In this document: in pieces, positions 7,137 through 24,480 of the stretch
Position numbering within the stretch: the first letter of the stretch is position 1
Layout: each line of letters begins with the position of its first letter
Origin: Burkholderiales bacterium
GTDB taxonomy: Bacteria; Pseudomonadota; Gammaproteobacteria; Burkholderiales; Thiobacteraceae
Direction of reading: 5' to 3'
DNA: 64,000 nucleotides
Assembly (NCBI GenBank): GCA_023511995.1
Contig: JAIMAL010000007.1
Span: forward strand, 1-64,000
Program-made: the position numbers and the translations under genes
The notes under the pieces: model-generated
Databases searched by the model: none
What the model saw: only the letters and a program-made list of their open reading frames with translations
Told to the model about the DNA's origin: nothing

Positions 7137-7856
7137 TCAGCCCCCCGCCAGCAGTTCGGCAAACAGCTGCGCATCCTCCACGGCGTAGGCGGCCTCGTCG
7201 TTATCGAAATAGACATAGGCATAGCGGGGTGCGGCTTGCCGCAGCCAATCCGCCCACGGCGCAAGACGGGCGCGGCCGTAGCGGCCGCAGTAGGCGCTGC
7301 CGGGGCCGTGCATCCGCACATAGGCGAAGTGGGTGGTGATGAGGCGCGGGGAGGTGTAGCCGGCGAGGTCATAGATGCAGAAGGCGGCACCGTGGGCGGT
7401 GAGGAGGTCGATGATTTCCGCCGTGTGCCAGCGCGGGTCGCGGAACTCGAAGGCCACGGCGAGTCCCGCCGGCAGCGCCTTAAGGAGGTGCAAAAGCCGC
7501 TCAGGCCGTGGTGCAAACCGCGGCGGCAACTGGAAGAGTAGCGGGCCGAGATGGTCACCAAGACAGGCGATGGCGGCGAGGAAGGGAGGCAGGGTCTTTT
7601 CCGGTGCGGCGAGTTTCTTCTGGTGGGTGATGAATCGGTTCGCCTTCACCGCGAAGCGGAAGCCCGCCGGCACCTGTGCCGCCCAGGCGGCAAAGGTGGC
7701 TTGCCGCGGCAGGCCATAGAAGCTCGCATTGATTTCCACGGTGGAGAAATGCTGCGCGTAAAACGACAGCCACTGGGAGACGGGCAGGTGGGCGGGGTAG
7801 AATCGACCTTGCCAGTGGCGGTAGGCCCAGCCGGAGGTGCCGACAAAGGCTTGCAT
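7137..7856 (-). CDS. DUF72 family protein (YecE-like)
   Basis: Member of the DUF72/YecE family, a TIM-barrel-like fold of unproven biochemical role. 239 residues, usual length. Typical family features are the opening FVGTSGWAYRHWQGRFYP, an internal NRFITHQKKL segment, and VAFEFRDPRW followed by YVRMHGPG near the C-terminus. ATG 7856 is supported by a GGGAGG ribosome site 7 nt upstream; a longer reading frame upstream lacks one. It is divergent from the small antitoxin-like gene at 7908, with only about 50 bp between them. Confidence 0.9.
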   Translation of the reverse strand: MQAFVGTSGWAYRHWQGRFYPAHLPVSQWLSFYAQHFSTVEINASFYGLPRQATFAAWAAQVPAGFRFAVKANRFITHQKKLAAPEKTLPPFLAAIACLGDHLGPLLFQLPPRFAPRPERLLHLLKALPAGLAVAFEFRDPRWHTAEIIDLLTAHGAAFCIYDLAGYTSPRLITTHFAYVRMHGPGSAYCGRYGRARLAPWADWLRQAAPRYAYVYFDNDEAAYAVEDAQLFAELLAGG

Positions 7857-14683: not shown

Positions 14684-15328
14684 TCAGCGGTCGCGCTGGC
14701 CGTAGTCCTTGAAGCGTTCCAGCACCTCGTCCATTTCCGCATCGCTCAGCAACACGGGCTCCCCCAAAAGGCGCGCGCGCCAGTACTGCCCGCACAGTTC
14801 CTCCACCTCCTCGGCAAGCGCCAGCGCAGCGGAGAGGGTAGCCCCCACCGCGATCAGGCCGTGATTGGCCATGAGACAGGCGCGCCGCCCCGCCAGTGCC
14901 TCCAGCACCGCCTCGGACAGGGCGGCGGTGCCGAAGGTGGCATAACGGGCGCAGCGGATGTCCTTACCCCCAGCGGCCGCCACCATGTAGTGGAAGGGCG
15001 GGATGCTCAGGCGCAAACAGGCCAGACTCACGGCGTGGGGGGGATGGGCATGGACGATGGCATTCACCTCCGGCCGGGCAGCGTAGAGGTCCCGGTGGAT
15101 GCGCCATTCGCTCGACGGCTTGAGCCCGCCGCGCCAGTTGCCCGCCATGTCGAGATACACCATCTGCTCCGGGTTCAAGCCATCGGCGGGCAGGCCGCTG
15201 GGGGTGATGAGGAAGCCCGGGCCACAGCGCACGCTGAGATTGCCGGCGGTGCCGCGATTGAGGCCCACGCGCACCGTCTGCCGGCTCGCCTCAACCAGTT
15301 GAATACGCAGGCTCGCCTCGTCAGTCAT
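14684..15328 (-). CDS. Class II aldolase, FucA-like (candidate 5-methylthioribulose-1-phosphate aldolase)
   Basis: Zinc-dependent class II aldolase/adducin family, 214 residues. It keeps the fuculose-phosphate aldolase pattern throughout: GTAGNLSVR, ITPSGLPAD, PSSEWRIH with Glu74, metal ligands His93, His95 and His156, and FHYMVAAAGG with Tyr114. This resembles FucA and the Ald2 aldolases more than the MtnB dehydratase. The start overlaps the end of mtnA by 8 bp, which suggests the substrate is 5-methylthioribulose-1-phosphate (or the 5-deoxy analogue), split to DHAP and an aldehyde. The family is certain; the substrate is inferred from context. MtnB remains an alternative. Confidence 0.8.
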   Translation of the reverse strand: MTDEASLRIQLVEASRQTVRVGLNRGTAGNLSVRCGPGFLITPSGLPADGLNPEQMVYLDMAGNWRGGLKPSSEWRIHRDLYAARPEVNAIVHAHPPHAVSLACLRLSIPPFHYMVAAAGGKDIRCARYATFGTAALSEAVLEALAGRRACLMANHGLIAVGATLSAALALAEEVEELCGQYWRARLLGEPVLLSDAEMDEVLERFKDYGQRDR

Positions 15329-16409
15329 GGTGTTCCGGATAGGCCTGGCGCAGGGCAGCGGCCTGGGGAGCCAGCACGCCGCGCTCCGTGATGAGTCCGC
15401 TAACGAGGTGCGCCGGCGTCACATCGAAGGCGGGATTGGCGGCGGGGCTTGCCGCGGGGGTGATGCGCACTTCGCGTACCATTGCCGTTTCATCGAGCCC
15501 CGCCACATGGGTCACCTCCCGCGCGGCGCGCGCCTCGATGGGAATGGCCCGTCCCTCGGCGCAGCGCCAGTCGATGGTGGGACCGGGTACTGCCACATAG
15601 AAGGGCACACCGTTGTCCCGGGCGGCGAGGGCCTTGAGATAGGTGCCGATCTTGTTGGCCACATCGCCATTGCGGCTCACCCGGTCGGCACCGACGATGA
15701 CCACATCCACCTCACCCCGCTGCATCAGATGGCCGGCCGCATTGTCGGCGATGACGGTGTGGGGCACGCCATGGGCGCCGAGCTCCCAGGCGGTGAGGGC
15801 GGCGCCCTGGTTGCGGGGGCGGGTCTCACTCACCCAGACGTGGACAGGGATGCCCGCATCGAAGGCCATATACACGGGCGCAAGCGCCGTGCCCCAGTCC
15901 ACTGTTGCCAGCCAGCCCGCATTGCAATGGGTCATGATGTTGAGTCTGCGCCCCAGCCGGCCGTAGAGAGCTGCTAAGAGCGGCAGGCCGTGGCGGCCGA
16001 TGGCTTCATTGATGGTGACGTCCTCCTCGCAGATGGCGGCGGCTTCGCCCCACGCGGCCTCGCGGCGCTCGCGGGCAGCTAGGGGCCGCAGGCGTTCCTG
16101 CATGCGCTCCACCGCCCAGCGCAGATTCACCGCCGTGGGACGGGTGGCCAGCAGGCGCGCGCAGGCGGTATCCAGACCGGTTTCTGAGGCATCTTCGGCA
16201 AGGGCCAGGGCCACCCCATAGGCGGCGGTGGCACCGATCAGGGGCGCGCCACGCACCTGCATGGTGGCGATCGCCTGCGCCGCCTCCTCGAGGGTGGTGA
16301 GCACGCGGAATTCCAGGCGATGGGGCAGTTTCGTCTGATCGATGATCACCACCCCGCTCTGATCGGCAAGGGCGCGGATGCTGCGGGTGGGTTCGCCGTT
16401 GATTCTCAT
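15321..16409 (-). CDS. mtnA: S-methyl-5-thioribose-1-phosphate isomerase
   Basis: Converts 5-methylthioribose-1-phosphate to 5-methylthioribulose-1-phosphate in the recycling of methylthioadenosine. 362 residues. The eIF2B-like fold shows VRGAPLIGATAAYG, catalytic Cys162 in THCNAGWLAT, and Asp242 in GADRVSRNGDVANKIGTY. ATG 16409 is chosen because the preceding codons are Pro/Arg-rich and not conserved in appearance. No mtnB, mtnC, mtnD or mtnK is in the window; the only partner is the coupled aldolase downstream. Confidence 0.95.
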   Translation of the reverse strand: MRINGEPTRSIRALADQSGVVIIDQTKLPHRLEFRVLTTLEEAAQAIATMQVRGAPLIGATAAYGVALALAEDASETGLDTACARLLATRPTAVNLRWAVERMQERLRPLAARERREAAWGEAAAICEEDVTINEAIGRHGLPLLAALYGRLGRRLNIMTHCNAGWLATVDWGTALAPVYMAFDAGIPVHVWVSETRPRNQGAALTAWELGAHGVPHTVIADNAAGHLMQRGEVDVVIVGADRVSRNGDVANKIGTYLKALAARDNGVPFYVAVPGPTIDWRCAEGRAIPIEARAAREVTHVAGLDETAMVREVRITPAASPAANPAFDVTPAHLVSGLITERGVLAPQAAALRQAYPEHHD

Positions 16410-16436
16410 GGGCGGTGGGCGTGAAAAAGACGGCAC

Positions 16437-16442
16437 ATTATC
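16437..16442 (-). promoter_or_regulatory. Candidate -10 element for mtnA
   Basis: On the minus strand GATAAT (5 of 6 matches to TATAAT) lies 28 nt upstream of the mtnA ATG. No good -35 hexamer is seen 16-18 nt further up, so this is tentative. Confidence 0.3.
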
Positions 16443-16487
16443 CCATGGCCTCTGCACCCCCACGAGGGTGCGGGTAAAGCCGCGTTC

Positions 16488-17309: not shown

Positions 17310-17975
17310 TCAGCGGCCTTGGCTCGCGGGGCGGTTGCCCTTGGCGCAGCCCCCTTGCAGCCGGTACCAGCCATGGAGGGCCGCGCGTTCCTCCACGCTG
17401 AAGGGATTGCGGTGGCCTTGATCGGCCATGCCCTTGACGCCCAGGAAAAGACGGGCGGCGAAGGCTTGCGGCGGTTCGCTGCAGGCGAGCCGGAAGAGGT
17501 TTTCCGCCGGCAGCAGGGTGTCGGTGTCGGGCTGGTCGTGGCAGCCGGCACAGGCCTCGCGATGAATGGCCGCGCCCACGGCGAGGGCCTGCGGGGCATC
17601 GGCGGGGGCGGGGGCGGCGAAGGGGTGCCGGGCCGCCAGCATTGCGACGATCTCCCGAGCCGGCGCGAGGCGGTTGTTGCGGATCAGGGCATGCAGCCGG
17701 CGCGCCGATTCCACCTCTCCCGCCGGCGCTTTGGCGGCACGCAGCATGAGGGGCAAAAGCGAGGCGGCCTCCAGGAGGCGGGCGCGCGTGCCCGGCCCCG
17801 GGGGCCGGGCGAAATCGGCCTGCATGATGGCAAGCAGTGCGGAAAGCCGCACTGCGGTTTCATTGGCGCACGCCGTGTTTGCCGCCAGGAGGCAAACGGC
17901 GGCGACCAGCAAGAGGGCGCTTCTCAGGGCAGTTTCACCTTCTGTTCCACCGGGCCGGCCTTGGTCAGGGTCCAC
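17310..17975 (-). CDS. c-type cytochrome, exported (sulfur operon)
   Basis: Periplasmic electron carrier with one haem-binding site, CAGCH, about two thirds along. A methionine in VKGMADQGHRN is a plausible sixth haem ligand. As drawn from GTG 17975 it has 221 residues, but its first 16 are Pro/Gly/Glu-rich and unlike a signal n-region. A CTG codon at 17927 overlaps the upstream rhodanese stop (CTGA) and would give an ideal signal peptide starting M-RSALLLVAAV, with an AAGGTG ribosome site just upstream. It is the last gene of the operon, so it could accept electrons from sulfur chemistry done by its neighbours. I do not recognise the subfamily. Confidence 0.82.
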   Translation of the reverse strand: MDPDQGRPGGTEGETALRSALLLVAAVCLLAANTACANETAVRLSALLAIMQADFARPPGPGTRARLLEAASLLPLMLRAAKAPAGEVESARRLHALIRNNRLAPAREIVAMLAARHPFAAPAPADAPQALAVGAAIHREACAGCHDQPDTDTLLPAENLFRLACSEPPQAFAARLFLGVKGMADQGHRNPFSVEERAALHGWYRLQGGCAKGNRPASQGR

Positions 17976-18859
17976 TCCACCATGGAGCCGTCGTAGAGCT
18001 TGACGTCTTTGTTGCCCAGCAGTTCATGGAGCACGAACCAGCCATTGGCGGCGAAATGTCCGGTGTTGCAGAAGGCGATTTCCGGGCCGCTGGTGGGGAT
18101 ACCTGCGATTTTCGCCAGCTCGCGCAACTGCTGCAGATTGCGGAAGGTGCCGCCGGCGTTTTCGGTCAGCCACGGCGAGGGCAGGTTTTTGGCGCCGGGC
18201 AGCGTGCCGTTCATGCTGGCCTTGGGATTGCGGTTAATGCCCACGTACTGGTCTTCCGGCCGCAGATCGACGAGAACGACTTTCTTGTTCGCCAGGGCTT
18301 CCTTGACGTCATCCACGGTGGCCAGATATTCGCGGCGGAAGTGGACAGTGAAGGTTTTGGGCTGCGGCGTGACCGGGCCGGTCTCCAGCGGGTTTTTCTT
18401 GTCCGCGGTGTAGGCCTTCATGCCGCCGTTGAGGATGGAGACCTCATCGTGGCCCAGCACCTTGAACGTCCAGTAGATGCGTGTGGCCCATCCCATGTCG
18501 ATGTTGGATTGGCCGGGGGGCACGATTACCACGTGGGTGTTGTTGTCGATGCCCAGTTTGCCGATCATCGCCGCCAGTTTGTTGAGGTCTTCCGGCAGCA
18601 TGTCCGGCACCTTGTCCCGGGCGCGTTCCTCACGCCAGCCGCCCTTCTCGAAATCGGTATTGACGGCGCCGGGGATGTGGCCGCGCAGATGGTCGGCCAT
18701 TGGCTGCAGGTCGAGGAAGACGATGCCGGGTTTGTGCAGGTTGGCCTTGACCCACTCCACATCCACCAGCGGCGTGGCGGCAAGTGCACTCATGGACCAG
18801 AAGAAAAGAAGCGCGCAGGCCCCGAGGAGGGTGGCGCGCAGGGAGGCGAGGGTTTTCAT
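17924..18859 (-). CDS. Exported two-domain rhodanese-like sulfurtransferase
   Basis: Transfers sulfane sulfur (thiosulfate or 3-mercaptopyruvate type). 311 residues with a signal peptide (residues ~1-27, cleavage near ALA-A), so it is periplasmic. The N-terminal rhodanese domain begins LVDVEWVKANL and lacks a clear active Cys. The C-terminal domain has Cys264 in the loop CNTGHFAANGW, which should carry the persulfide. An AAAGGAG site precedes ATG 18859. Neighbours are DsrE-like proteins upstream and cytochrome c downstream, so it probably handles sulfur brought in or released by the same operon. Confidence 0.9.
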   Translation of the reverse strand: MKTLASLRATLLGACALLFFWSMSALAATPLVDVEWVKANLHKPGIVFLDLQPMADHLRGHIPGAVNTDFEKGGWREERARDKVPDMLPEDLNKLAAMIGKLGIDNNTHVVIVPPGQSNIDMGWATRIYWTFKVLGHDEVSILNGGMKAYTADKKNPLETGPVTPQPKTFTVHFRREYLATVDDVKEALANKKVVLVDLRPEDQYVGINRNPKASMNGTLPGAKNLPSPWLTENAGGTFRNLQQLRELAKIAGIPTSGPEIAFCNTGHFAANGWFVLHELLGNKDVKLYDGSMVEWTLTKAGPVEQKVKLP

Positions 18860-18877
18860 GGTCTGCTCCTTTGGTTG

Positions 18878-19060
18878 TCAGAGGGTGATGATGCGTTCGG
18901 CGGCAAGCAGGGCATCGAGGATGCGATCCCAGTCCGCCTCTTTCAGTCCCGGCCGCGTGAGATCGAGGAGATGCACCCCGGCGCCGAAAGCGGCGGCAAG
19001 AGCGGTCTCCAGGAACCCGGCGTCCGGGAACAGATCCGTTTTCAGGGCCAAAACAGTCAT
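18878..19060 (-). CDS. Small DsrH-like protein (sulfur operon)
   Basis: A 60-residue cytoplasmic protein with no cysteine. It opens MTVLALKTDLF and ends ADWDRILDALLAAERIITL. The last strand resembles the C-terminal ends of its two upstream neighbours (RVVSL and AVINL), and the position as third in a row of small proteins matches the DsrE-DsrF-DsrH (TusD-C-B) layout. Sequence similarity to TusB/DsrH is only suggestive. ATG overlaps the previous stop by 4 bp. Confidence 0.6.
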   Translation of the reverse strand: MTVLALKTDLFPDAGFLETALAAAFGAGVHLLDLTRPGLKEADWDRILDALLAAERIITL

Positions 19061-19335
19061 AGGTTGATCACCGCATCGGCGGCGGCGACCGCCTCACCCA
19101 GGGCCGCCGCATCCAGAAAAGGCAGATCGGCTTGTTCCGGCACCGTGGTCTCTGGGGTGATGTCGGACAGGGCCAACAGTTCCGCCATGGCTGCATTCTC
19201 CGCGGTTTCCGCCACGGGCCGGTGCATGAAGACCAGGCGGACCCGATGGCCGAAGATGGTGAGGCCCGCGGCCACCCGCATGGCTTCCGTGTGGTCGCGC
19301 CGGGCAAGCACGAGCAGGGAACGCTTGCTGCTCAC
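19057..19335 (-). CDS. Small DsrF/DsrE-like protein (sulfur operon)
   Basis: 92 residues, predicted cytoplasmic, no cysteine. A beta-alpha-beta opening (SLLVLARRDHTEAMRVAAGL then HRVRLVFMHRPV) is like the DsrE/DsrF fold. The C-terminus ends AADAVINL, matching the ends of its two neighbours. The lack of Cys suggests a structural subunit, not the sulfur-bearing one. It is coupled to both neighbours by 4-bp overlaps. Family assignment is by fold pattern and context. Confidence 0.62.
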   Translation of the reverse strand: MSSKRSLLVLARRDHTEAMRVAAGLTIFGHRVRLVFMHRPVAETAENAAMAELLALSDITPETTVPEQADLPFLDAAALGEAVAAADAVINL

Positions 19336-19625
19336 AGGCTCACCACCCGTTGTGCCTGCGCCATGAGGGCGCTGTTGTCGGTCTGGCTGCCGGCCTCGAT
19401 GGGGCAGGGTTCGTGGGGACGAAACCGGCGCCAGGATTCCTCGCAGGCCACCGCCCGGACATCGCCCAAAGCCCCTTTGATCTCGGGGTCGGCGACGACC
19501 AGCACGCCATCGTTGGTGAAGAAGCAGGCGACCGTTGCGCCGCGGCGGCGGGCGGCGGCGACGAGGGGGAGAAGATAGCGTCCTGCGCCCTGATGACTGA
19601 CATGGAAGAGGATGTCGATGCTCAT
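19332..19625 (-). CDS. DsrE-like sulfur carrier candidate (sulfur operon)
   Basis: 97 residues. The opening MSIDILFHVSHQGAGRYLL and the RRGATVACFFTNDGV strand-helix-strand pattern are DsrE-like. Cysteines are at 34, 61 and 74. Cys61 in VACEESWRRF sits where DsrE/TusD proteins carry the active cysteine, so it is the likely persulfide site. It ends AQRVVSL. A GGAGG ribosome site precedes ATG 19625, and the start overlaps the end of the exported rhodanese-like gene. With the next two genes it could form a DsrEFH-type complex. Confidence 0.68.
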   Translation of the reverse strand: MSIDILFHVSHQGAGRYLLPLVAAARRRGATVACFFTNDGVLVVADPEIKGALGDVRAVACEESWRRFRPHEPCPIEAGSQTDNSALMAQAQRVVSL

Positions 19626-20209
19626 ACCGTTGCCTCCAGCCGGACAGGAACCGAGCTTCCCGTAAGCCGTGCCTTCACCCAGTGGGCGAGGGCCAGGCGG
19701 GGATCCCCCAGGCGCACCGTGCCTCGGGGGCACACCTCACCGGGCATGACGATCTCCCGCTCGCGCATGGCGGCGAGGTAGGCGGTGCGCCGGGCAAAGT
19801 CGCGCGCCTGCCCTGCGCCCGCGCGCCAGCCGGCGGCCAGCAGCGCCGCCACCGGCTGCTCGATGAGTTCCACCCTGCGCTGACCGGCAAGCCAGAGCAG
19901 CCCCGCGACGAAACGGCGGTCGGTGGCCTCATCACCGATGACCACCACCGTCTCCCTGCCATCGAGGCGCACGGTGGTGAACAGCCACAGGATTTCGCGC
20001 CAGGGGGCAAGCTGCCCGCGCCCATCGAGGAATTCCGCAGCCGGCAGGCAGCGCGCTCCCGCCACCGAGCGGGTCTGGCATAGCGCGGCCGGCCGCACGT
20101 CGATCACCACTGCTTCGCCGGTCACCGGGGGTGCGATCCCGCGCAGCGCAAGTTCGCCGCGGGCGGGCAGGGTGACGAGGGCGAGGAGCAAGAGGGGCAG
20201 CCACCGCAT
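19622..20209 (-). CDS. Exported rhodanese-like protein lacking the catalytic Cys
   Basis: 195 residues with a signal peptide (MRWLPLLLLALVTLPARGE), so periplasmic. A rhodanese-like domain is recognisable from AVVIDVRP, an AGARCLPAAEFL segment equivalent to the usual GHIPGA motif, and a VVVIGDEATDRR segment where the active-site loop should begin. The loop has no cysteine, so it is probably not a working sulfurtransferase and may bind a sulfur species or a partner. Its start abuts the stop of the upstream 89-residue gene. Confidence 0.72.
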   Translation of the reverse strand: MRWLPLLLLALVTLPARGELALRGIAPPVTGEAVVIDVRPAALCQTRSVAGARCLPAAEFLDGRGQLAPWREILWLFTTVRLDGRETVVVIGDEATDRRFVAGLLWLAGQRRVELIEQPVAALLAAGWRAGAGQARDFARRTAYLAAMREREIVMPGEVCPRGTVRLGDPRLALAHWVKARLTGSSVPVRLEATV

Positions 20210-20479
20210 CTAGCAGCCTCCGAAGCGTTTCACCGAAGGGGGCGCCGCTCCCCCTTGAGCCGGTGCGGGGGGATGTTCCACCCAGTAGGCGACCAGATCG
20301 ATGCCCGAGACCCTGCCGAAGCTGCCCAGATCGAATTCCGGCAGCTTGTCCGGGGTGACCGGTGTCCGGGCCTGCGCCAGCACCTCCGGCGGCAGCGCCG
20401 CATAACGGAAACCGACGGCAGAAAGGCCCAGGGCGGCGAGCAGGGCGACGATGCAGAAGATGAGACTTTCCCGGTTCAT
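20210..20479 (-). CDS. Membrane-anchored protein ending in Gly-Gly-Cys (sulfur operon)
   Basis: 89 residues, family not recognised. One N-terminal membrane helix (IFCIVALLAALGLSAVGF), then a soluble tail of about 60 residues with a Pro/Ala-rich linker, ending KRFGGC. A cysteine as the very last residue on a flexible Gly-rich tail is reminiscent of sulfur-carrier arms, though nothing proves that. ATG 20479 begins the membrane segment; a longer frame upstream is Cys/Ser-rich and unlikely. It lies 7 nt after the 30-residue microgene. Confidence 0.65.
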   Translation of the reverse strand: MNRESLIFCIVALLAALGLSAVGFRYAALPPEVLAQARTPVTPDKLPEFDLGSFGRVSGIDLVAYWVEHPPAPAQGGAAPPSVKRFGGC

Positions 20480-20486
20480 CTGTGCC

Positions 20487-20579
20487 TCACAGGGTATCGT
20501 GCAGCAGGGCGAGGTACATGACGCCGAAAGCCACACAGAACATCACGATTTGCAGGGTGGTCTCCACATCCACGATCAT
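20487..20579 (-). CDS. 30-residue single-pass membrane microprotein (sulfur operon)
   Basis: A short gene of 30 codons plus stop. ATG 20579 overlaps the previous stop as ATGA, the same coupling used throughout this operon. The product is a short acidic N-terminus, then a hydrophobic helix of about 19 residues (LQIVMFCVAFGVMYLALL) and HDTL. Its size recalls small subunits of membrane enzymes and transporters. Function unknown. Evidence is the exact start-stop overlap and the membrane-helix composition. Confidence 0.6.
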   Translation of the reverse strand: MIVDVETTLQIVMFCVAFGVMYLALLHDTL

Positions 20580-20785
20580 GGCCTGACTCCCTTGTAGTGG
20601 CGCACCAGGGTCTCCACCGGCAGCGGTTTGCCGGTGATGGGATCGATCACCGGCGGGGTGAAATAGGGCACCCCGTCCTTTGTCACCTTCATGCTCGCCG
20701 GCGGATGGGCATAGACCTTCCACACCCCCCAGGCACATACGGCGAGGGAAAGGGCGAGATACACCCGCATCAGCACGCGCGCCAT
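20576..20785 (-). CDS. Small membrane-anchored protein (sulfur operon)
   Basis: 69 residues, family not recognised. The N-terminal helix VYLALSLAVCAWGVWKVY is an anchor or uncleaved signal. The rest is a short periplasm-facing tail with Pro-rich segments (FTPPVIDPITGKPLPVETL). It starts 1 nt after the TusA stop and its stop overlaps the next microgene, so it is translationally tied to both. It may be an accessory subunit of the YeeE/YedE permeases or of the periplasmic sulfur enzymes. Confidence 0.7.
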   Translation of the reverse strand: MARVLMRVYLALSLAVCAWGVWKVYAHPPASMKVTKDGVPYFTPPVIDPITGKPLPVETLVRHYKGVRP

Positions 20786-20786
20786 A

Positions 20787-21089
20787 TCAGCGTTTCCTCA
20801 GGTAGACGTGCCAGGCACGGCCGGTGTTGACCGTGGCGAGGTGCTCGCAATCGAGCTCGGCACACATGGGGGGCAGGGCCTCCACCGAGGTGGGGTTGTC
20901 CACCAGCACTTCCACCACTTCGCCGGCACCGGCCTCCTTCATCGCTTTGCGGGTCATGAGCTGTGGCCGGGGGCAGGAATCGCCGATCGCGTCCACCTGG
21001 CGGCCGACGGTGATTTCACGCCCGTCGGGGAGGGTGACCTTGCCGCCACCGGTGGCGGCTTCCGTCTTTTTGCTGCCGAAAAGTCCCAT
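20787..21089 (-). CDS. TusA-family sulfur carrier
   Basis: Small cytoplasmic persulfide carrier, 100 residues. The hallmark CPxP motif is at Cys39-Pro40-Arg41-Pro42 in IGDSCPRPQLMTRKAM. The family's beta-alpha fold continues with VVEVLVDNPTSVEALP. A 25-residue Gly/Lys-rich N-terminal extension precedes the usual domain. An AAGGAGA site precedes ATG 21089. TusA next to YeeE/YedE permeases is a known pairing for sulfur uptake. Here it probably accepts sulfur from the permease pair and passes it to DsrE-like proteins. Confidence 0.9.
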   Translation of the reverse strand: MGLFGSKKTEAATGGGKVTLPDGREITVGRQVDAIGDSCPRPQLMTRKAMKEAGAGEVVEVLVDNPTSVEALPPMCAELDCEHLATVNTGRAWHVYLRKR

Positions 21090-21107
21090 GTTGGTCTCCT
21101 TCAACAA

Positions 21108-21707
21108 TCATTCGCTGACTTCGTCCTTCTCGCGCGCCTGTTCCTTGCGCCGGATCGCCCGGTAGATGGCGGCCAGCACGGCAAACTGGATGAGGCCGAA
21201 GACGATGGCGGGAATACCCGTTTTCTCCTGCAGGGTGCGGGCATTGGCGAAACCCGCCTGCAGTGCTTCCGGATTGGGGTCGCCGGTCATGGAGGCGGGG
21301 GCGGGCGGCCACTGGTTGTAGGACCAGAGCAGGGAAAAGAGAAACATGCCGATGAAGGTGAAAAGCAGTGCCCACACCGCCCCCACGTTGCCTTCCGCCG
21401 CCTTCACCCAGGTGGAGACGGTGCAGGCACCGGCCAGCACCATGCCAAGACCAAAGAGGAAAAGCCCGAGGAAGGTGTTGAGGCCCACGTCGAAATCCAG
21501 CGGGTGGCCCGCGCCCACCGTCATGAAGGCGGTGAAACCCACGGTGAGGATCATCATCGCCACCAGCAGGGCCTTGGTGTTGCGGTAGGTGGAAAACATC
21601 ATGGCATCGCGCAGGGCGGCGGTATTGCAGAAGCGGGAGCGCTGCACCAGCAGCCCCACGGCGGTGCCGAAAACGAAAGCGATCATGCACTCGGCGATGG
21701 TGGACAT
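21108..21707 (-). CDS. YeeE/YedE half-permease, subunit 2
   Basis: Inner-membrane transporter of the YeeE/YedE (TsuA-like) family, which moves thiosulfate or related sulfur compounds. 199 residues with about five membrane helices. Conserved-type cysteines are Cys27 in QRSRFCNTAALRDAM and Cys95 in LAGACTVSTW, the kind used to pass substrate through the pore. The single-chain TsuA is about twice as long, so this half works with the half encoded 2 nt upstream. The C-terminus is highly charged and cytoplasmic. Confidence 0.88.
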   Translation of the reverse strand: MSTIAECMIAFVFGTAVGLLVQRSRFCNTAALRDAMMFSTYRNTKALLVAMMILTVGFTAFMTVGAGHPLDFDVGLNTFLGLFLFGLGMVLAGACTVSTWVKAAEGNVGAVWALLFTFIGMFLFSLLWSYNQWPPAPASMTGDPNPEALQAGFANARTLQEKTGIPAIVFGLIQFAVLAAIYRAIRRKEQAREKDEVSE

Positions 21708-21709
21708 CC

Positions 21710-22201
21710 TCAACCCTCCAGCATTTTCTTGTAGATGAGGGAGCCGACCCAGGCGCCGGCGATGATGCCGGAGACGGCGAGATAGCCACCCAGGTTCATC
21801 TCGGGCGTGAGGCCGAAGAAGGTGGAGACGTTGCAGACGAAGGCCAGCCGGATGCCGATCCCCATGAGCAGCCCGCCCAGGGTGATCATCACCCACTCCG
21901 ACAGGCGGCGTGGCACCCGCAGGTAGAATTCCTTGCTCGCCACCGCTCCGATGAAGGCGCCAAAGAACATGCCGAGGCTGATATACATCTTCCAGTAATC
22001 CCAGTGGGGCTCGAACACCAGGGTCCAGAAGGGCAGGCGTTTGAGCTCGTCGCCAAGAAAGGCCTGGGCGATGAGCCCCGTCATCATGGTTTCGCCGCCG
22101 CCCACTGTCCAGGCGCCGATGGTGAGGAAAAGGAAGATGTCGAGGACGGCGATCACCGCCAGGGCGAACACCGGATCGAGGGTTTTCCTGAATAGCTCCA
22201 C
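21710..22201 (-). CDS. YeeE/YedE half-permease, subunit 1
   Basis: 163 residues, about four to five membrane helices, with Cys123 in AFVCNVSTFFGL matching the family's cysteine motif and EMNLGGYLAVSGI following. It starts at GTG 22201 with an ideal AAGGAGG ribosome site 5 nt upstream; the upstream frame has no comparable site. It is the first gene of the leftward sulfur operon and is followed 2 nt later by the second half. The two halves likely make one functional transporter. Confidence 0.88.
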   Translation of the reverse strand: MELFRKTLDPVFALAVIAVLDIFLFLTIGAWTVGGGETMMTGLIAQAFLGDELKRLPFWTLVFEPHWDYWKMYISLGMFFGAFIGAVASKEFYLRVPRRLSEWVMITLGGLLMGIGIRLAFVCNVSTFFGLTPEMNLGGYLAVSGIIAGAWVGSLIYKKMLEG

Positions 22202-22263
22202 GTTGCCTCCTTGTCGTTGTGCGCAAAGCATAGACCGCAGGGGACGGCCCGGGGTAGTAATCT

Positions 22264-22287
22264 TTGCCAACAGAGAAGGCTTGCCAA
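22264..22287. repeat. Two direct TTGCCAA repeats in the divergent control region
   Basis: Copies of TTGCCAA at 22264-22270 and 22281-22287 are spaced 17 bp start to start, between the leftward sulfur operon and the rightward ribbon-helix-helix gene. The right copy covers the -35 of the regulator gene. They are plausible operator half-sites for that regulator. A GTAATC pair (22257-22262 and 22305-22310) also flanks this region. Confidence 0.4.
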
Positions 22288-22309
22288 GGGGCGGCGGCTG
22301 CGCTGTAAT
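22281..22309 (+). promoter_or_regulatory. Promoter of the ribbon-helix-helix regulator gene
   Basis: -35 TTGCCA (22281-22286, 5 of 6) and -10 TGTAAT (22304-22309, 5 of 6) are separated by exactly 17 bp. Start of transcription is expected near 22316, about 20 nt before the ATG. The -35 overlaps a TTGCCAA repeat, consistent with autoregulation. Confidence 0.55.
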
Positions 22310-22336
22310 CCTGACAACAAGAGGCAGGAGCGCAAG

Positions 22337-22669
22337 ATGAGAATCTTCGTCGAGGAAAACGACGCCCTCGATCACATGTTCAATGCCTGCACCACGGCGC
22401 AGATCACGGAATTCATCCCGGAAAAGCGGGGTTTCCGCATCCATGGCCACAGCACCACCATCGCCCTCGAGCGGGCCTTCTGGAACGTGCTGGAGGACAT
22501 GGCGCGGGAGCTCAACCTCACCCTGCCCAAGCTCATCCAGCGAGTCCACGATGGCTGCCTGGTGGCCAACGACAAGAACATCGCCTCCTGCCTGCGGGTG
22601 ATCTGCGTCAAATGGCTGATGATCTACAGCCAGGGCGGCGCGGCAGACACGGCATCCCTGCTGGGCTGA
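22337..22669 (+). CDS. Ribbon-helix-helix domain protein, likely regulator of the sulfur operon
   Basis: 110 residues. The central segment matches the RHH_4-type ribbon-helix-helix domain: FRIHGHSTTIALERAFWNVL gives the beta ribbon and first helix, then LNLTLPKLIQRVHD and NIASCLRVICVKWL. The first 35 residues are an extra N-terminal part with one cysteine. An AGGAG site lies 6 nt upstream of ATG 22337. Its divergent position and a shared control region with repeats make it the best candidate regulator of the leftward sulfur operon. DNA binding is inferred. Confidence 0.75.
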   Translation: MRIFVEENDALDHMFNACTTAQITEFIPEKRGFRIHGHSTTIALERAFWNVLEDMARELNLTLPKLIQRVHDGCLVANDKNIASCLRVICVKWLMIYSQGGAADTASLLG

Positions 22670-22676
22670 GCGCCGC

Positions 22677-23777
22677 CTAGCTGCGCACCACGAAGCGCGG
22701 CTCGAGCTTTGCCAGCTTTTCCATGATGCCCGTGTATTCCAGCTCCGCCATGGGCAGCATGGCCGCGCCGAAGAAGCCCTGGCGGCGCATGTCCACCGCC
22801 TTCTGGCTCACCTTGTCGCGCACCGCATTCCAGAAGGGATGGGCAAAGGCATCGAGCGCCTCGGTGAGGCGCCCTGCGTGCATGGCATAGGCGGCGCAGC
22901 TGACGATGGGCGGCCCGTCGAAATAGCTGGTGCCGGTATTGAGGGGCACCGGCATCAGCGGCATCTGATGCGACCCGCGCATGCAGCCGGCGACGAAATG
23001 GCCCACGGCATAGGGCGCGAGGACCTCCCCCGTGGCCGGGAAATTCATCTGCACCCGGACCAGCATCACCGGATCGTCCTTGCCCGTGTATTTGCCGGCG
23101 ATGTTGTGCAGCCGCGAGGTGGCCACCGCCACCGCCTGCTCCCCGGTGGCGCGGGACCAGACGGATTCCACCACATAACGCTCCGGATCACGCAAAAGCG
23201 CCGCAATGTCGTAGAGCTCCTCCGGCGCATTGAGCTCGATGATGCGGTCTCCCTCGGTGTGATTCACGTCCATGATGACGAAGCGGAAGCCCTCGGCCAT
23301 CTTGGGCGAGAGCATGAGCCCCGGCGTGTTCATGGGATCGGCGAAGGCGGCATAGAGGGGGAAGTTGAAGGCGCCGGGATCGGTCTTGTCGGCGGCGAAG
23401 AAAAGAAAGGGTTCGTTGGGCCGCTCCTCGAATTCCATTTCCGCACAGGCCGGCCCCATGCCATGCACGTTGCCGGAGAAGGAATCCTTGAGCAGGTCCT
23501 GACCGGCGCCATAGAGGCCCTGGGCCTTGGCCGTCTCGGTGCCGGCGACGAAGGCATCCCAGGCCAGGCGATGGATGGCCTCGTCCTTCACGCCCCGCGT
23601 GTGGGTCATGAGAATGGCGATGTCGTCCCCGGTGTGGGTCACGTTGAAATCGATGAGCAGTTCCCTACCCTGGCTCGCCACGTGATGGCGCACGCGGTCA
23701 AGGAGGGCGGCGGAAGGCGCGATGTGCCCGCCGATGGAACCGATGTCGGCCTTGATGACGGAAACGGTGACTTTCAT
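22677..23777 (-). CDS. fbp: Fructose-1,6-bisphosphate aldolase/phosphatase (archaeal type, class V)
   Basis: Bifunctional gluconeogenic enzyme that condenses DHAP and GAP and then removes the C1 phosphate. 366 residues, normal for this heat-stable family. Metal and phosphate residues are in place: Asp11 and His18 (KADIGSIGGH), Asp51/Asp52 (THTGDDIAIL), Gln93, Asp130/Lys131 (FAADKTDPG). The aldolase pair Tyr230 and Lys233 in IAGKYTGKDDPVM matches the Tyr229/Lys232 pair of crenarchaeal enzymes, so both activities are expected. It is common in archaea and deep-branching or autotrophic thermophilic bacteria and uncommon in Betaproteobacteria. It is convergent with the RHH gene. Confidence 0.94.
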   Translation of the reverse strand: MKVTVSVIKADIGSIGGHIAPSAALLDRVRHHVASQGRELLIDFNVTHTGDDIAILMTHTRGVKDEAIHRLAWDAFVAGTETAKAQGLYGAGQDLLKDSFSGNVHGMGPACAEMEFEERPNEPFLFFAADKTDPGAFNFPLYAAFADPMNTPGLMLSPKMAEGFRFVIMDVNHTEGDRIIELNAPEELYDIAALLRDPERYVVESVWSRATGEQAVAVATSRLHNIAGKYTGKDDPVMLVRVQMNFPATGEVLAPYAVGHFVAGCMRGSHQMPLMPVPLNTGTSYFDGPPIVSCAAYAMHAGRLTEALDAFAHPFWNAVRDKVSQKAVDMRRQGFFGAAMLPMAELEYTGIMEKLAKLEPRFVVRS

Positions 23778-23844
23778 GCCGTACTCCTCACGGAACAGGG
23801 ACTCTCTCCACTTTAGCAGGCAAAAAAGAAACCTGCGTTTAAGT

Positions 23845-24480
23845 TCAGGCCACCCAGCCGGGAAAGAGTCGCGCGAGCCCCCGGGCAATCATTTCCACGG
23901 ACAGTGCCGCGATGATGAGGCCCATCAGACGGGTGACGATGTGAATGCCGGTGCGTCCGAGGCGATGGGCAATGTAGGGCGCTCCCTGGAAACAAAGCCA
24001 GACGGCAAGGCTCACCAGGGTGATGGGCAGAATGAGGGCGGCCTGATCCAGGGGCGAGCCCGGATGGGCCCCCGCGGCCACGATCACCTGGGTGATGGCG
24101 CCGGGCCCGGCCAGCAGGGGCACGCCGAGGGGGACGGCGCCCACCGCTTCCCTTTCCTCCGCCTCCACTGCCTCGTCCGGTGTCTGGCGCAGGGGGCTGG
24201 TGTGGGCCTGCAGCATGGAGAGGGAGAGGATGAGGAGGAGCAGCCCGCCGGCGACGGAGAACGATTCGATGCGGATTTCGAAAAAGCGCAGGGCATGCTC
24301 CCCCAACAGGGCGGCTGCCGCCAGCACCGCCCACACGGTGAGCGCCGCAATGGCGGCGGCGCGCCGGGCCTGCGCCGTGGACAGACTGCGGGTGGCGACA
24401 AGGAAAAACGGGATGGTGCCCACCGGATCGACGACGGCGAACAGGGTCAGCGTCGTCTTGAGGAGCCCCGCCCAGTCCAT
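23845..24480 (-). CDS. MarC family integral membrane protein
   Basis: 211 residues, six predicted membrane helices. MarC/YhgN features are AVVDPVGTIPFFL in the first helix and PLGVPLLAGPGAITQVI after the central loop. The central loop (residues ~95-115) is strongly acidic. Despite its name, the family has no confirmed role in antibiotic resistance, and its transported substrate is unknown. It begins 3 nt after the DUF202 gene stop, so both are likely cotranscribed. Confidence 0.9.
   Translation of the reverse strand: MDWAGLLKTTLTLFAVVDPVGTIPFFLVATRSLSTAQARRAAAIAALTVWAVLAAAALLGEHALRFFEIRIESFSVAGGLLLLILSLSMLQAHTSPLRQTPDEAVEAEEREAVGAVPLGVPLLAGPGAITQVIVAAGAHPGSPLDQAALILPITLVSLAVWLCFQGAPYIAHRLGRTGIHIVTRLMGLIIAALSVEMIARGLARLFPGWVA

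Follow-up and report, generated by a model that had tools for sequence, protein, structure and literature searches.

We characterized an operon of twelve genes in a 64,000-nucleotide stretch of DNA (hereafter, the window) from a Burkholderiales bacterium of the Thiobacteraceae (GenBank assembly GCA_023511995.1, contig JAIMAL010000007.1, positions 1–64,000), and interpret it as a machine for sulfane-sulfur import and relay that supplies sulfur for oxidation by Dsr in the cytoplasm, a reading to which we assign a probability of roughly 0.6. The evidence comprises gene content, synteny, cysteine conservation, the predicted folds of two DsrE-type proteins (g08 and g09), co-occurrence with dsrA and the linkage of a divergent ribbon-helix-helix (RHH) regulator gene to an upstream motif. 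An initial annotation of this DNA had proposed an envelope sulfur relay, and the conserved unit does hold the parts of a relay across the inner membrane. How sulfane sulfur travels from periplasm to cytoplasm for oxidation is a standing question in the field, and the operon represents a complete candidate route for organisms that are mostly Dsr-type oxidizers, including SUP05, SAR324, Sedimenticola and Sulfuritalea records.

Organization of the operon

The minus strand between 22201 and 17310 carries twelve open reading frames (ORFs), g01 to g12, as one compact block, with the following features in and upstream of it:

22337–22669, plus strand: divergent RHH_4 regulator, 110 aa from its most likely start (Pfam RHH_4, 72.8 bits; cut-off 25)
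22253–22270, minus strand: putative conserved promoter/operator motif TTKGCAAWRAWTACYACC, upstream of the operon
21710–22201, minus strand: g01, YeeE/YedE half permease, C-half of Sulf_transp (Pfam), Cys123
21108–21707, minus strand: g02, YeeE/YedE half permease, N-half of Sulf_transp (Pfam), Cys7, Cys27 and Cys95
20787–21089, minus strand: g03, TusA-type sulfurtransferase with a CPRP motif, Cys39 (Pfam TusA, 68.7 bits; cut-off 28.6)
20576–20785, minus strand: g04, 69 aa, a single hydrophobic segment (hydropathy), no accepted Pfam family
20487–20579, minus strand: g05, membrane peptide of 30 aa (hydropathy, homologues)
20210–20479, minus strand: g06, 89 aa, N-terminal hydrophobic helix and C-terminal Gly-Cys (hydropathy, alignment)
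19622–20209, minus strand: g07, exported rhodanese-fold protein, 195 aa, Cys44/Cys54 pair (Rhodanese, 14.5 bits, below the cut-off of 22.2)
19332–19625, minus strand: g08, DsrE-like sulfurtransferase by predicted fold, Cys61 (Pfam below cut-off)
19057–19335, minus strand: g09, DsrF-like subunit by predicted fold
18878–19060, minus strand: g10, 60 aa, DsrH-like by position only (synteny)
17924–18859, minus strand: g11, exported two-domain rhodanese, active Cys264 (Pfam Rhodanese, 98.9 bits; cut-off 22.2)
17310–17975, minus strand: g12, exported monohaem cytochrome c, CxxCH at 142–146, start uncertain (17975 or 17912)

The junctions from g01 to g12 measure 2, 18, 1, −4, 7, 0, −4, −4, −4, 18 and −52 nt, the last value hinging on the start of g12 (GTG 17975 or, for example, TTG 17912). 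The compact block described in the initial annotation therefore holds, with every ORF in its place and junctions of −52 to +18 nt, and its account of the gene contents was right. The Sulf_transp halves scored 76.6 (g01) and 89.5 bits (g02) against a Pfam cut-off of 27; the cytochrome domain of g12 stayed below its curated cut-off (23.4 versus 27 bits) and matched Cytochrome_CBB3 at E 7.5e-5.

Conservation and distribution

We scanned named genomes with the permease half g01 as the query and retained 80 of 123 relatives, a design that may miss other forms of the operon. Among the 51 loci that extend 6.5 kb beyond g01, 45 contain all twelve genes (each at E ≤ 0.05, on the same strand and near g01), so the recurrence of the gene order across genomes, on which the initial annotation had made its proposal depend, is borne out. 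Homologues at E ≤ 0.001 were counted across the 80 loci for TusA (77), g04 (73), g05 (61), g06 (72), g07 (68), g08 (68), g09 (66), g10 (58), g11 (63), g12 (60) and the RHH protein (58); many contigs end within the operon. By record titles, the loci span alpha-, beta- and gammaproteobacteria and SAR324: they include Sedimenticola (with Sedimenticola selenatireducens), Thiorhodococcus mannitoliphagus, Magnetovibrio blakemorei, Maritimibacter, Marimonas, Sinisalibacter and ‘Ca. Desulfobacillus denitrificans’, together with metagenome-assembled genomes titled Sulfuritalea, Thiobacillus, Thioglobus (SUP05) and SAR324. The genes flanking the operon in the window (FBPase, GPx, MtnA-like and aldolase-like) do not travel with it in the 80 loci, one GPx match excepted. 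An order that recurs in distant genomes while its flanks do not travel along is beyond chance.

A search with g07 through 274 genomes of the class returned 11 matches, host included. We discarded one of these, G134 (E 3.8e-4), for want of a convincing operon gene set at its locus; of the nine other genomes, eight keep the gene order over the stretch that their contigs cover, with local exceptions: in G125 (L016) the best g11 match lies upstream on the opposite strand, and in G207 (L018) no g11 match was found. The ninth, G267, with a g07 homologue and the cytochrome alone on a 3.3-kb contig and the permease half (g01) on another, was counted as an operon genome despite this separation. A complete genome of the same order, reached through the g06 family (G580), has the full twelve-gene set and a divergent RHH gene in the conserved arrangement. 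The two-domain rhodanese precedes the permease in three loci (L082, L087 and L092). We also considered a mobile-element origin and rejected it: none of 14 plasmid records covers 80% of g02 and all are below 60% identity (the matching plasmid genes, where annotated, belong to the YeeE/YedE family), and no g01 relative was confirmed on viral contigs.

Cysteines along the predicted relay

Sulfur-binding cysteines are nearly invariant in the relay proteins, in support of the proposed function. Cys123 of g01 is kept in 87/87 homologues, and Cys7, Cys27 and Cys95 of g02 in 79, 83 and 84 of 85, respectively; the permease is encoded by two genes, the stops of g01 and g02 differing in 79/79 pairs. Cys39 of TusA is present in 83/83 homologues and Cys61 of g08 in 77/77. 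The initial annotation had named Cys264 as the active-site residue of the two-domain rhodanese g11, and this assignment stands: a cysteine occupies the position, in the C-terminal domain as in catalytic rhodaneses, in 71/73 homologues, and the best solved relative is a thiosulfate sulfurtransferase (E 1.9e-34). Both haem cysteines of g12 are kept in 64/64. These alignment counts are slightly redundant (L015 and L052 are seemingly one locus, and L066 and L067 share an identical g06).

The other exported rhodanese-fold protein, g07, has no conserved rhodanese active-site cysteine among 77 aligned homologues; Cys44 and Cys54 are each kept in 76/77. Its homologues fall into two length groups, 144–239 and 269–339 aa (range 144–339 aa in 73 homologues, with mechanically chosen starts). 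The host has the short form (195 aa) and 48/73 have at least 269 aa; from these lengths, some lineages seem to have lost the second rhodanese-like domain.

A full-length YeeE/YedE transporter is also encoded in the host, on contig 1 (locus L105, 5524–6789, minus strand) a few kilobases from soxB, and is SoxT-like by position.

The small membrane proteins and the cysteine tail of g06

The last residue of g06 is cysteine, preceded by glycine, in 81/81 homologues (C-terminal triplets GGC 63, QGC 13, EGC 3, SGC 1 and HGC 1). This ending is rare in the genomic surroundings: of 1,261 mechanically chosen ORFs in the 80 loci, 68 have a terminal Cys and 52 a terminal Gly-Cys, with g06 contributing 51 of each, so that only 1 of 1,210 ORFs other than g06 ends in Gly-Cys. 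None of 58 g06 members matched a Pfam family at E ≤ 0.1, and NCBIfam yielded nothing better than E 0.017. The gene gave one match per genome in 12/12 operon genomes. Its family is rare, with two convincing genomes, host included, among 398 drawn from the phylum; a third match (G553, E 0.005 over 37 positions) was treated as chance. Another of the small proteins, g04, conserves Gly38, Pro49 and Leu60 at 95% or more, and no Pfam family was matched by more than one of the 37 members scanned (best E 0.021).

We propose, from these sequence features, that g06 is a membrane-anchored periplasmic sulfur carrier, akin to a swinging arm. In the periplasmic carrier SoxY, a flexible C-terminal arm bears a Gly-Cys; g06 also has a C-terminal Gly-Cys, which would bind sulfur in a similar way. 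Unlike SoxY, g06 is anchored in the membrane, is 89 aa long, bears the cysteine as the terminal residue itself and matched no Pfam family. Small, and with a terminal cysteine that does not vary, it lends itself to direct testing.

The DsrE-type set

The initial annotation had counted three DsrE-type proteins; two are upheld by predicted fold (g08 and g09), and the third (g10, 60 aa) is placed by synteny. For g08 (predicted model, predicted local distance difference test (pLDDT) score 96.2), comparison with the DsrE structure 2hy5_A gave Z 13.2 and a root-mean-square deviation (rmsd) of 1.9 over 95 aligned residues, tied within 1 Z with 1jx7_A (YchN, 13.1) and 2d1p_A (TusBCD, 12.6). Cys61 closes strand 57–61 of the model and, on that basis, would sit where Cys78/Cys67 lies in DsrE proteins. 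The g09 model (pLDDT 96.1) gave Z 11.3 with 3mc3 and Z 9.1 with DsrF (2hy5_B, rmsd 2.3, 88 aligned) in VIA-align; the eight top entries were DsrE/DsrF-family or similar small proteins. Foldseek alone returned no match at E ≤ 0.001 for either protein: its four highest-ranked matches for g08 named either DsrE-type structures or a hypothetical protein of Sulfolobus, and for g09 no DsrE or DsrF chain appeared among the 50 matches listed, whereas VIA-align put the DsrE/DsrF family on top.

At the sequence level the signals are faint. Pfam DsrE (PF02635) scored g08 at 16 bits, below the gathering cut-off of 22.7, with 21/56 members matching at E ≤ 0.1; a sequence search of the PDB gave no convincing match for g08–g10 (g09 against DsrF 2hy5_B, E 0.49); and profile matches to the host’s own DsrE, DsrF and DsrH had probabilities of 3.9% (g08), 26.7% (g09) and 0.5% (g10). 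The position of g10 is the expected DsrH slot.

Metabolic setting

Marker genes were counted in genomes from the class sample and in 50 named loci picked from the 80 for near-complete operons (L052 was replaced by L101); completeness is not given for the named genomes. Among operon genomes, dsrA exceeded its cut-off in 51/60 and was partial in five more (G208, G279, G285, G289 and G295), compared with 87/274 in the class sample. Within that sample, dsrA exceeded its cut-off in 8/10 operon genomes and 79/264 others (Fisher P = 0.002, uncorrected for relatedness); with G267 left out, the counts are 7/9 and 80/265 (P = 0.005). The Sox marker soxB exceeded its cut-off in just 47/61 operon genomes, and we therefore rejected a strict dependence on Sox. 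DsrE2 is a candidate sulfur entry route to cytoplasmic oxidation; its family (PF13686, DrsE_2) was over the cut-off in 58/61 operon genomes versus 120/274 of the class sample. For selD, the count was 32/61.

The host carries a canonical dsrABEFHCMKLJOP cluster on contig 10, outside of which g08–g10 lie, and sox genes on contig 1 (cluster genes were named by eye, with models for dsrA and soxB). Because this cluster holds its own DsrEFH, g08–g10 constitute a second DsrEFH-like set. The same order from dsrA to at least dsrJ, with dsrEFH and dsrL, was found in 12 other dsr loci from operon genomes and also in two loci from genomes without a g07 match; the oxidative type of these clusters was judged by gene order with dsrL, not by a DsrAB tree.

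Several operon genomes carry two dsrAB pairs. Second dsrA copies lie in three regions with dsrAB and no dsrEFH (L107, L109 and L116) and in one with dsrA only (L113); in the three dsrAB regions (from the locus pairs L106/L107, L108/L109 and L115/L116), neither dsrEFH nor dsrMKLJOP adjoins the second pair.

Regulation

An RHH homologue is present in 58/80 loci, adjacent and divergent in 53 and elsewhere in the locus in five. In the window, the RHH gene most likely starts at 22337 (Met43 of the ORF from 22211), because strongly conserved columns begin at Met43. In the numbering of the 22211 ORF, Cys60, Cys116 and Cys127 are present in 58/58 homologues and Cys132 in 54/58. The initial annotation had the divergent RHH protein regulating the operon, and a link between the two is evident upstream: the motif TTKGCAAWRAWTACYACC, found by k-mer count, occurs with five or fewer mismatches in all 53 loci that have an adjacent divergent RHH gene and 300 bp of upstream sequence, as opposed to 4/26 loci without such a gene (Fisher P 8e-16, uncorrected for relatedness). 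Overall, 58/86 upstream regions matched at this threshold and 1/86 after shuffling, which kept single-base composition only. Two of the four matches in loci without an adjacent divergent RHH gene, those in L091 (two mismatches) and L095 (one), accompany an RHH homologue elsewhere in the operon; the other two (L082 and L087, five mismatches each) lie in sequence that looks like the terminal part of the upstream rhodanese gene and probably arose by chance. In L092, the RHH gene is further upstream and the motif was not found near g01. Across 18 genomes chosen among those with the motif at the operon, a genome-wide search gave a single match in 16 and two in the other two, and a reversed control pattern gave none. 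In one of these two, G305 (locus L065), an additional motif at about 7383–7400 precedes, by about 175 bp, an extra two-domain rhodanese gene (7576 onward) upstream of the RHH gene. A palindrome search for an RHH operator yielded nothing recurrent. We infer from the linkage that the RHH protein acts on the operon through the motif at 22253–22270.

Some loci (for example, L038, L052 and L078) have other genes upstream, in clusters that we named by eye: a histidine kinase in 17 loci, a response regulator in 13 and a periplasmic binding protein in 11. They may serve as a different sensor in loci that lack the RHH gene.

Proposed mechanism and alternatives

In the proposed mechanism, Cys264 of g11 would take periplasmic sulfane sulfur from thiosulfate, polysulfide or mobilized sulfur and pass it to the C-terminal cysteine arm (Cys89) of g06, which is anchored in the membrane. 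Inward transport would fall to the split YeeE permease (g01 and g02), with cysteines in both halves and possibly stabilized by g04 and g05. Cys39 of TusA would then receive the sulfur and hand it to the DsrE Cys61 of a g08–g09–g10 complex, which would deliver it to DsrC and DsrAB or to another acceptor. On the outside, g07 (Cys44/Cys54) and the cytochrome g12 may perform a thiol redox step that delivers electrons to the respiratory chain, and the RHH protein would control the operon via the motif at 22253–22270. For homologues, sulfur transfer from TusA through DsrEFH type II to DsrC has been demonstrated in vitro (PMC13293266), as has import by SoxT1A (PMC11582611). For the operon itself, we infer the direction and substrate of the relay, the function of g06 as a carrier, the parts played by g04, g05, g07 and g12, and binding by the RHH protein.

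A bolder joint reading, which we hold at somewhat below even odds, takes g06 as a new class of carrier. Held in the inner membrane by a single helix, it would swing the cysteine at its very C-terminus back and forth from the exported rhodanese to the opening of the two-piece YeeE channel. Sulfur would then cross the inner membrane as a Cys-to-Cys persulfide relay from the periplasm to DsrE, never free, and the cytochrome c of the operon would drain the oxidizing equivalents.

Several observations weigh against a relay that feeds Dsr. The complete genome G263 has the operon and soxB without dsrA, and therefore Dsr cannot be the acceptor in every case; no clear dsrA is present in G311 or G319 either, and the match in G291 is of dsrB type only. 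Conversely, 79 of the 87 dsrA-bearing class genomes have no g07 match, so Dsr oxidation mostly runs without the operon. A second DsrEFH-like set is not obviously needed in a host whose dsr cluster holds its own, g10 matches neither a PDB sequence nor the host DsrH, and no expression or biochemical data on the operon were found in the open-access literature. The operon is also not the sole candidate import route, given that DsrE2 co-occurs with it; since this is so and the dsr cluster has its own DsrEFH, the operon would add a further route, perhaps one for a different sulfur species.

Among other explanations, the one that survives best, although we consider it unlikely, is thiosulfate uptake of the TsuA/TsuB type, in which YeeE would import whole thiosulfate, TusA would split it and the rest would be accessory. 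The permease halves, with TusA adjoining, match the TsuA NCBIfam models far under their cut-offs (g01 and g02: 57.3 and 56.6 of 400 bits, and 36.3 and 60.0 of 645), although half proteins can hardly attain a full-length cut-off and the miss is weak evidence; the YedE/FdhT model gives scores no lower than these (57.6 and 73.2 of 350 bits). Such uptake would assign no role to the cytochrome, the cysteine arm or either of the exported rhodanese-fold proteins, and thiosulfate did not persulfidate TusA or DsrEFH type II of cable bacteria (PMC13293266).

Less probable again is a SoxT1B-like signalling module, in which a small import of sulfur would merely inform the RHH regulator through its cysteines. 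Three invariant cysteines and a fourth in 54/58, together with a motif that is single in 16/18 genomes, would suit a sensor, but this would leave the DsrEFH-like complex, the two rhodanese-fold proteins and the cytochrome unexplained; moreover, of the 26 loci in which no divergent RHH gene adjoins the operon, 22 have no motif, yet they keep the permease and most of the operon as far as contigs reach.

We regard as slightly more doubtful still an outward relay that would export cytoplasmic sulfane sulfur for periplasmic storage or detoxification. Cysteine relays can run both ways, and transfer between TusA and DsrEFH type II is bidirectional in vitro (PMC13293266), but the step from type II DsrEFH to DsrC is one-way only in the same report, and SoxT1A (PMC11582611) and Escherichia coli YeeE/TsuA (PMC11073785) are importers. 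Selenium handling, with YedE/YedF-like parts and an ExtH-like rhodanese serving selenium transport or selenite reduction, is very improbable: g01 and g02 match selenium YedE models under their cut-offs, g11 reaches 67.4 of 200 bits with the ExtH model and the operon is present in Sedimenticola selenatireducens, but the frequency of selD in operon genomes (32/61) is far from that of dsrA (51/60 and five partial). That the operon replaces Rhd–TusA–DsrE2 as the entry to Dsr, both being candidate sulfur entry routes to cytoplasmic oxidation, hardly deserves credence given the co-occurrence of DsrE2 with the operon (58/61 versus 120/274).

Neighbouring genes in the window

Directly upstream of the operon region, at 22677–23888 (minus strand), the window contains a gene for an FBPase_3-type fructose-1,6-bisphosphatase (537.7 bits), which we take to be an archaeal-type enzyme, here in a proteobacterium. 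At 14684–16463 (minus strand), an IF-2B family protein, presumably MtnA-like, is followed by an ORF resembling a class II aldolase (the database search covered the IF-2B protein only); the two are perhaps a methylthioadenosine or dihydroxyacetone phosphate-shunt pair.

Comparison with known systems

The sulfane-sulfur relay that we favour resembles, in part, the SoxT1A module of Hyphomicrobium denitrificans, in which mutants of the YeeE-family importer SoxT1A are sulfur oxidation-negative (PMC11582611). Both have such an importer, a periplasmic thiol protein, a rhodanese, a small single-transmembrane protein and a DsrE-type acceptor; the SoxT1A module differs in its full-length permease, sHdr–LbpA as the final acceptor, DsbA-like periplasmic partner and cytoplasmic rhodanese, its membrane protein is 56 aa without cysteine, and the excerpted text names no cytochrome or cysteine-tailed membrane protein (PMC11582611). 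PmpA and PmpB likewise form a YeeE-family permease from separate halves, but of about 130 aa with one conserved cysteine each, whereas those described here have 163 and 199 aa with one conserved cysteine in g01 and three in g02 (PMC11582611). With DsrEFH type I and TusBCD, the operon has in common the predicted fold of g08 and g09 and a single conserved cysteine in the DsrE-type subunit; unlike them, g08 falls under the Pfam DsrE cut-off, and the profile matches to the host DsrEFH are weak.

The closest relative is the YTD cluster, comprising yedE, tusA, dsrE and two conserved hypothetical genes, which has been proposed as a marker of sulfur disproportionation (PMC9751629, PMC8780430 and PMC13047784); in 2026, its last three genes were shown to be DsrEFH type II, and the proteins of cable bacteria transfer sulfur in vitro from TusA to Cys67 of DsrE and on to DsrC (PMC13293266). 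The initial annotation had called the unit probably undescribed. This does not hold for the core of yeeE, tusA and three DsrE-like genes, known as YTD or yeeE–tusA–dsrEFH type II (PMC13293266, PMC13047784 and PMC9751629); the twelve-gene unit and g06 were not found described in the open-access literature searched, and neither were the additions to the core, namely the split permease, g04–g06, the two exported rhodanese-fold proteins, the cytochrome c and the RHH regulator. As in YTD and type II clusters, a yedE-related gene (here, the permease halves) adjoins tusA, and a DsrE-like gene with one conserved cysteine (g08) is followed by a DsrF-type gene (g09, by predicted fold) and then by g10, which occupies the DsrH position. 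Unlike in the YTD clusters, the permease is two genes, g04–g07 stand between tusA and dsrE, g11 and g12 follow g10, and the RHH gene and motif precede the operon in most loci. The genomic context differs as well: of the 985 genomes reported to have DsrEFH type II, 73.9% carry dsrAB of the reductive type and 4.7% of the oxidative type (PMC13293266), whereas the host and 12 other dsr loci have dsrL and their own dsrEFH. The operon also bears on the 2026 view that ties DsrEFH type II mainly to reductive dsrAB, placing a similar set in genomes alongside a dsrL-bearing dsr cluster with its own DsrEFH.

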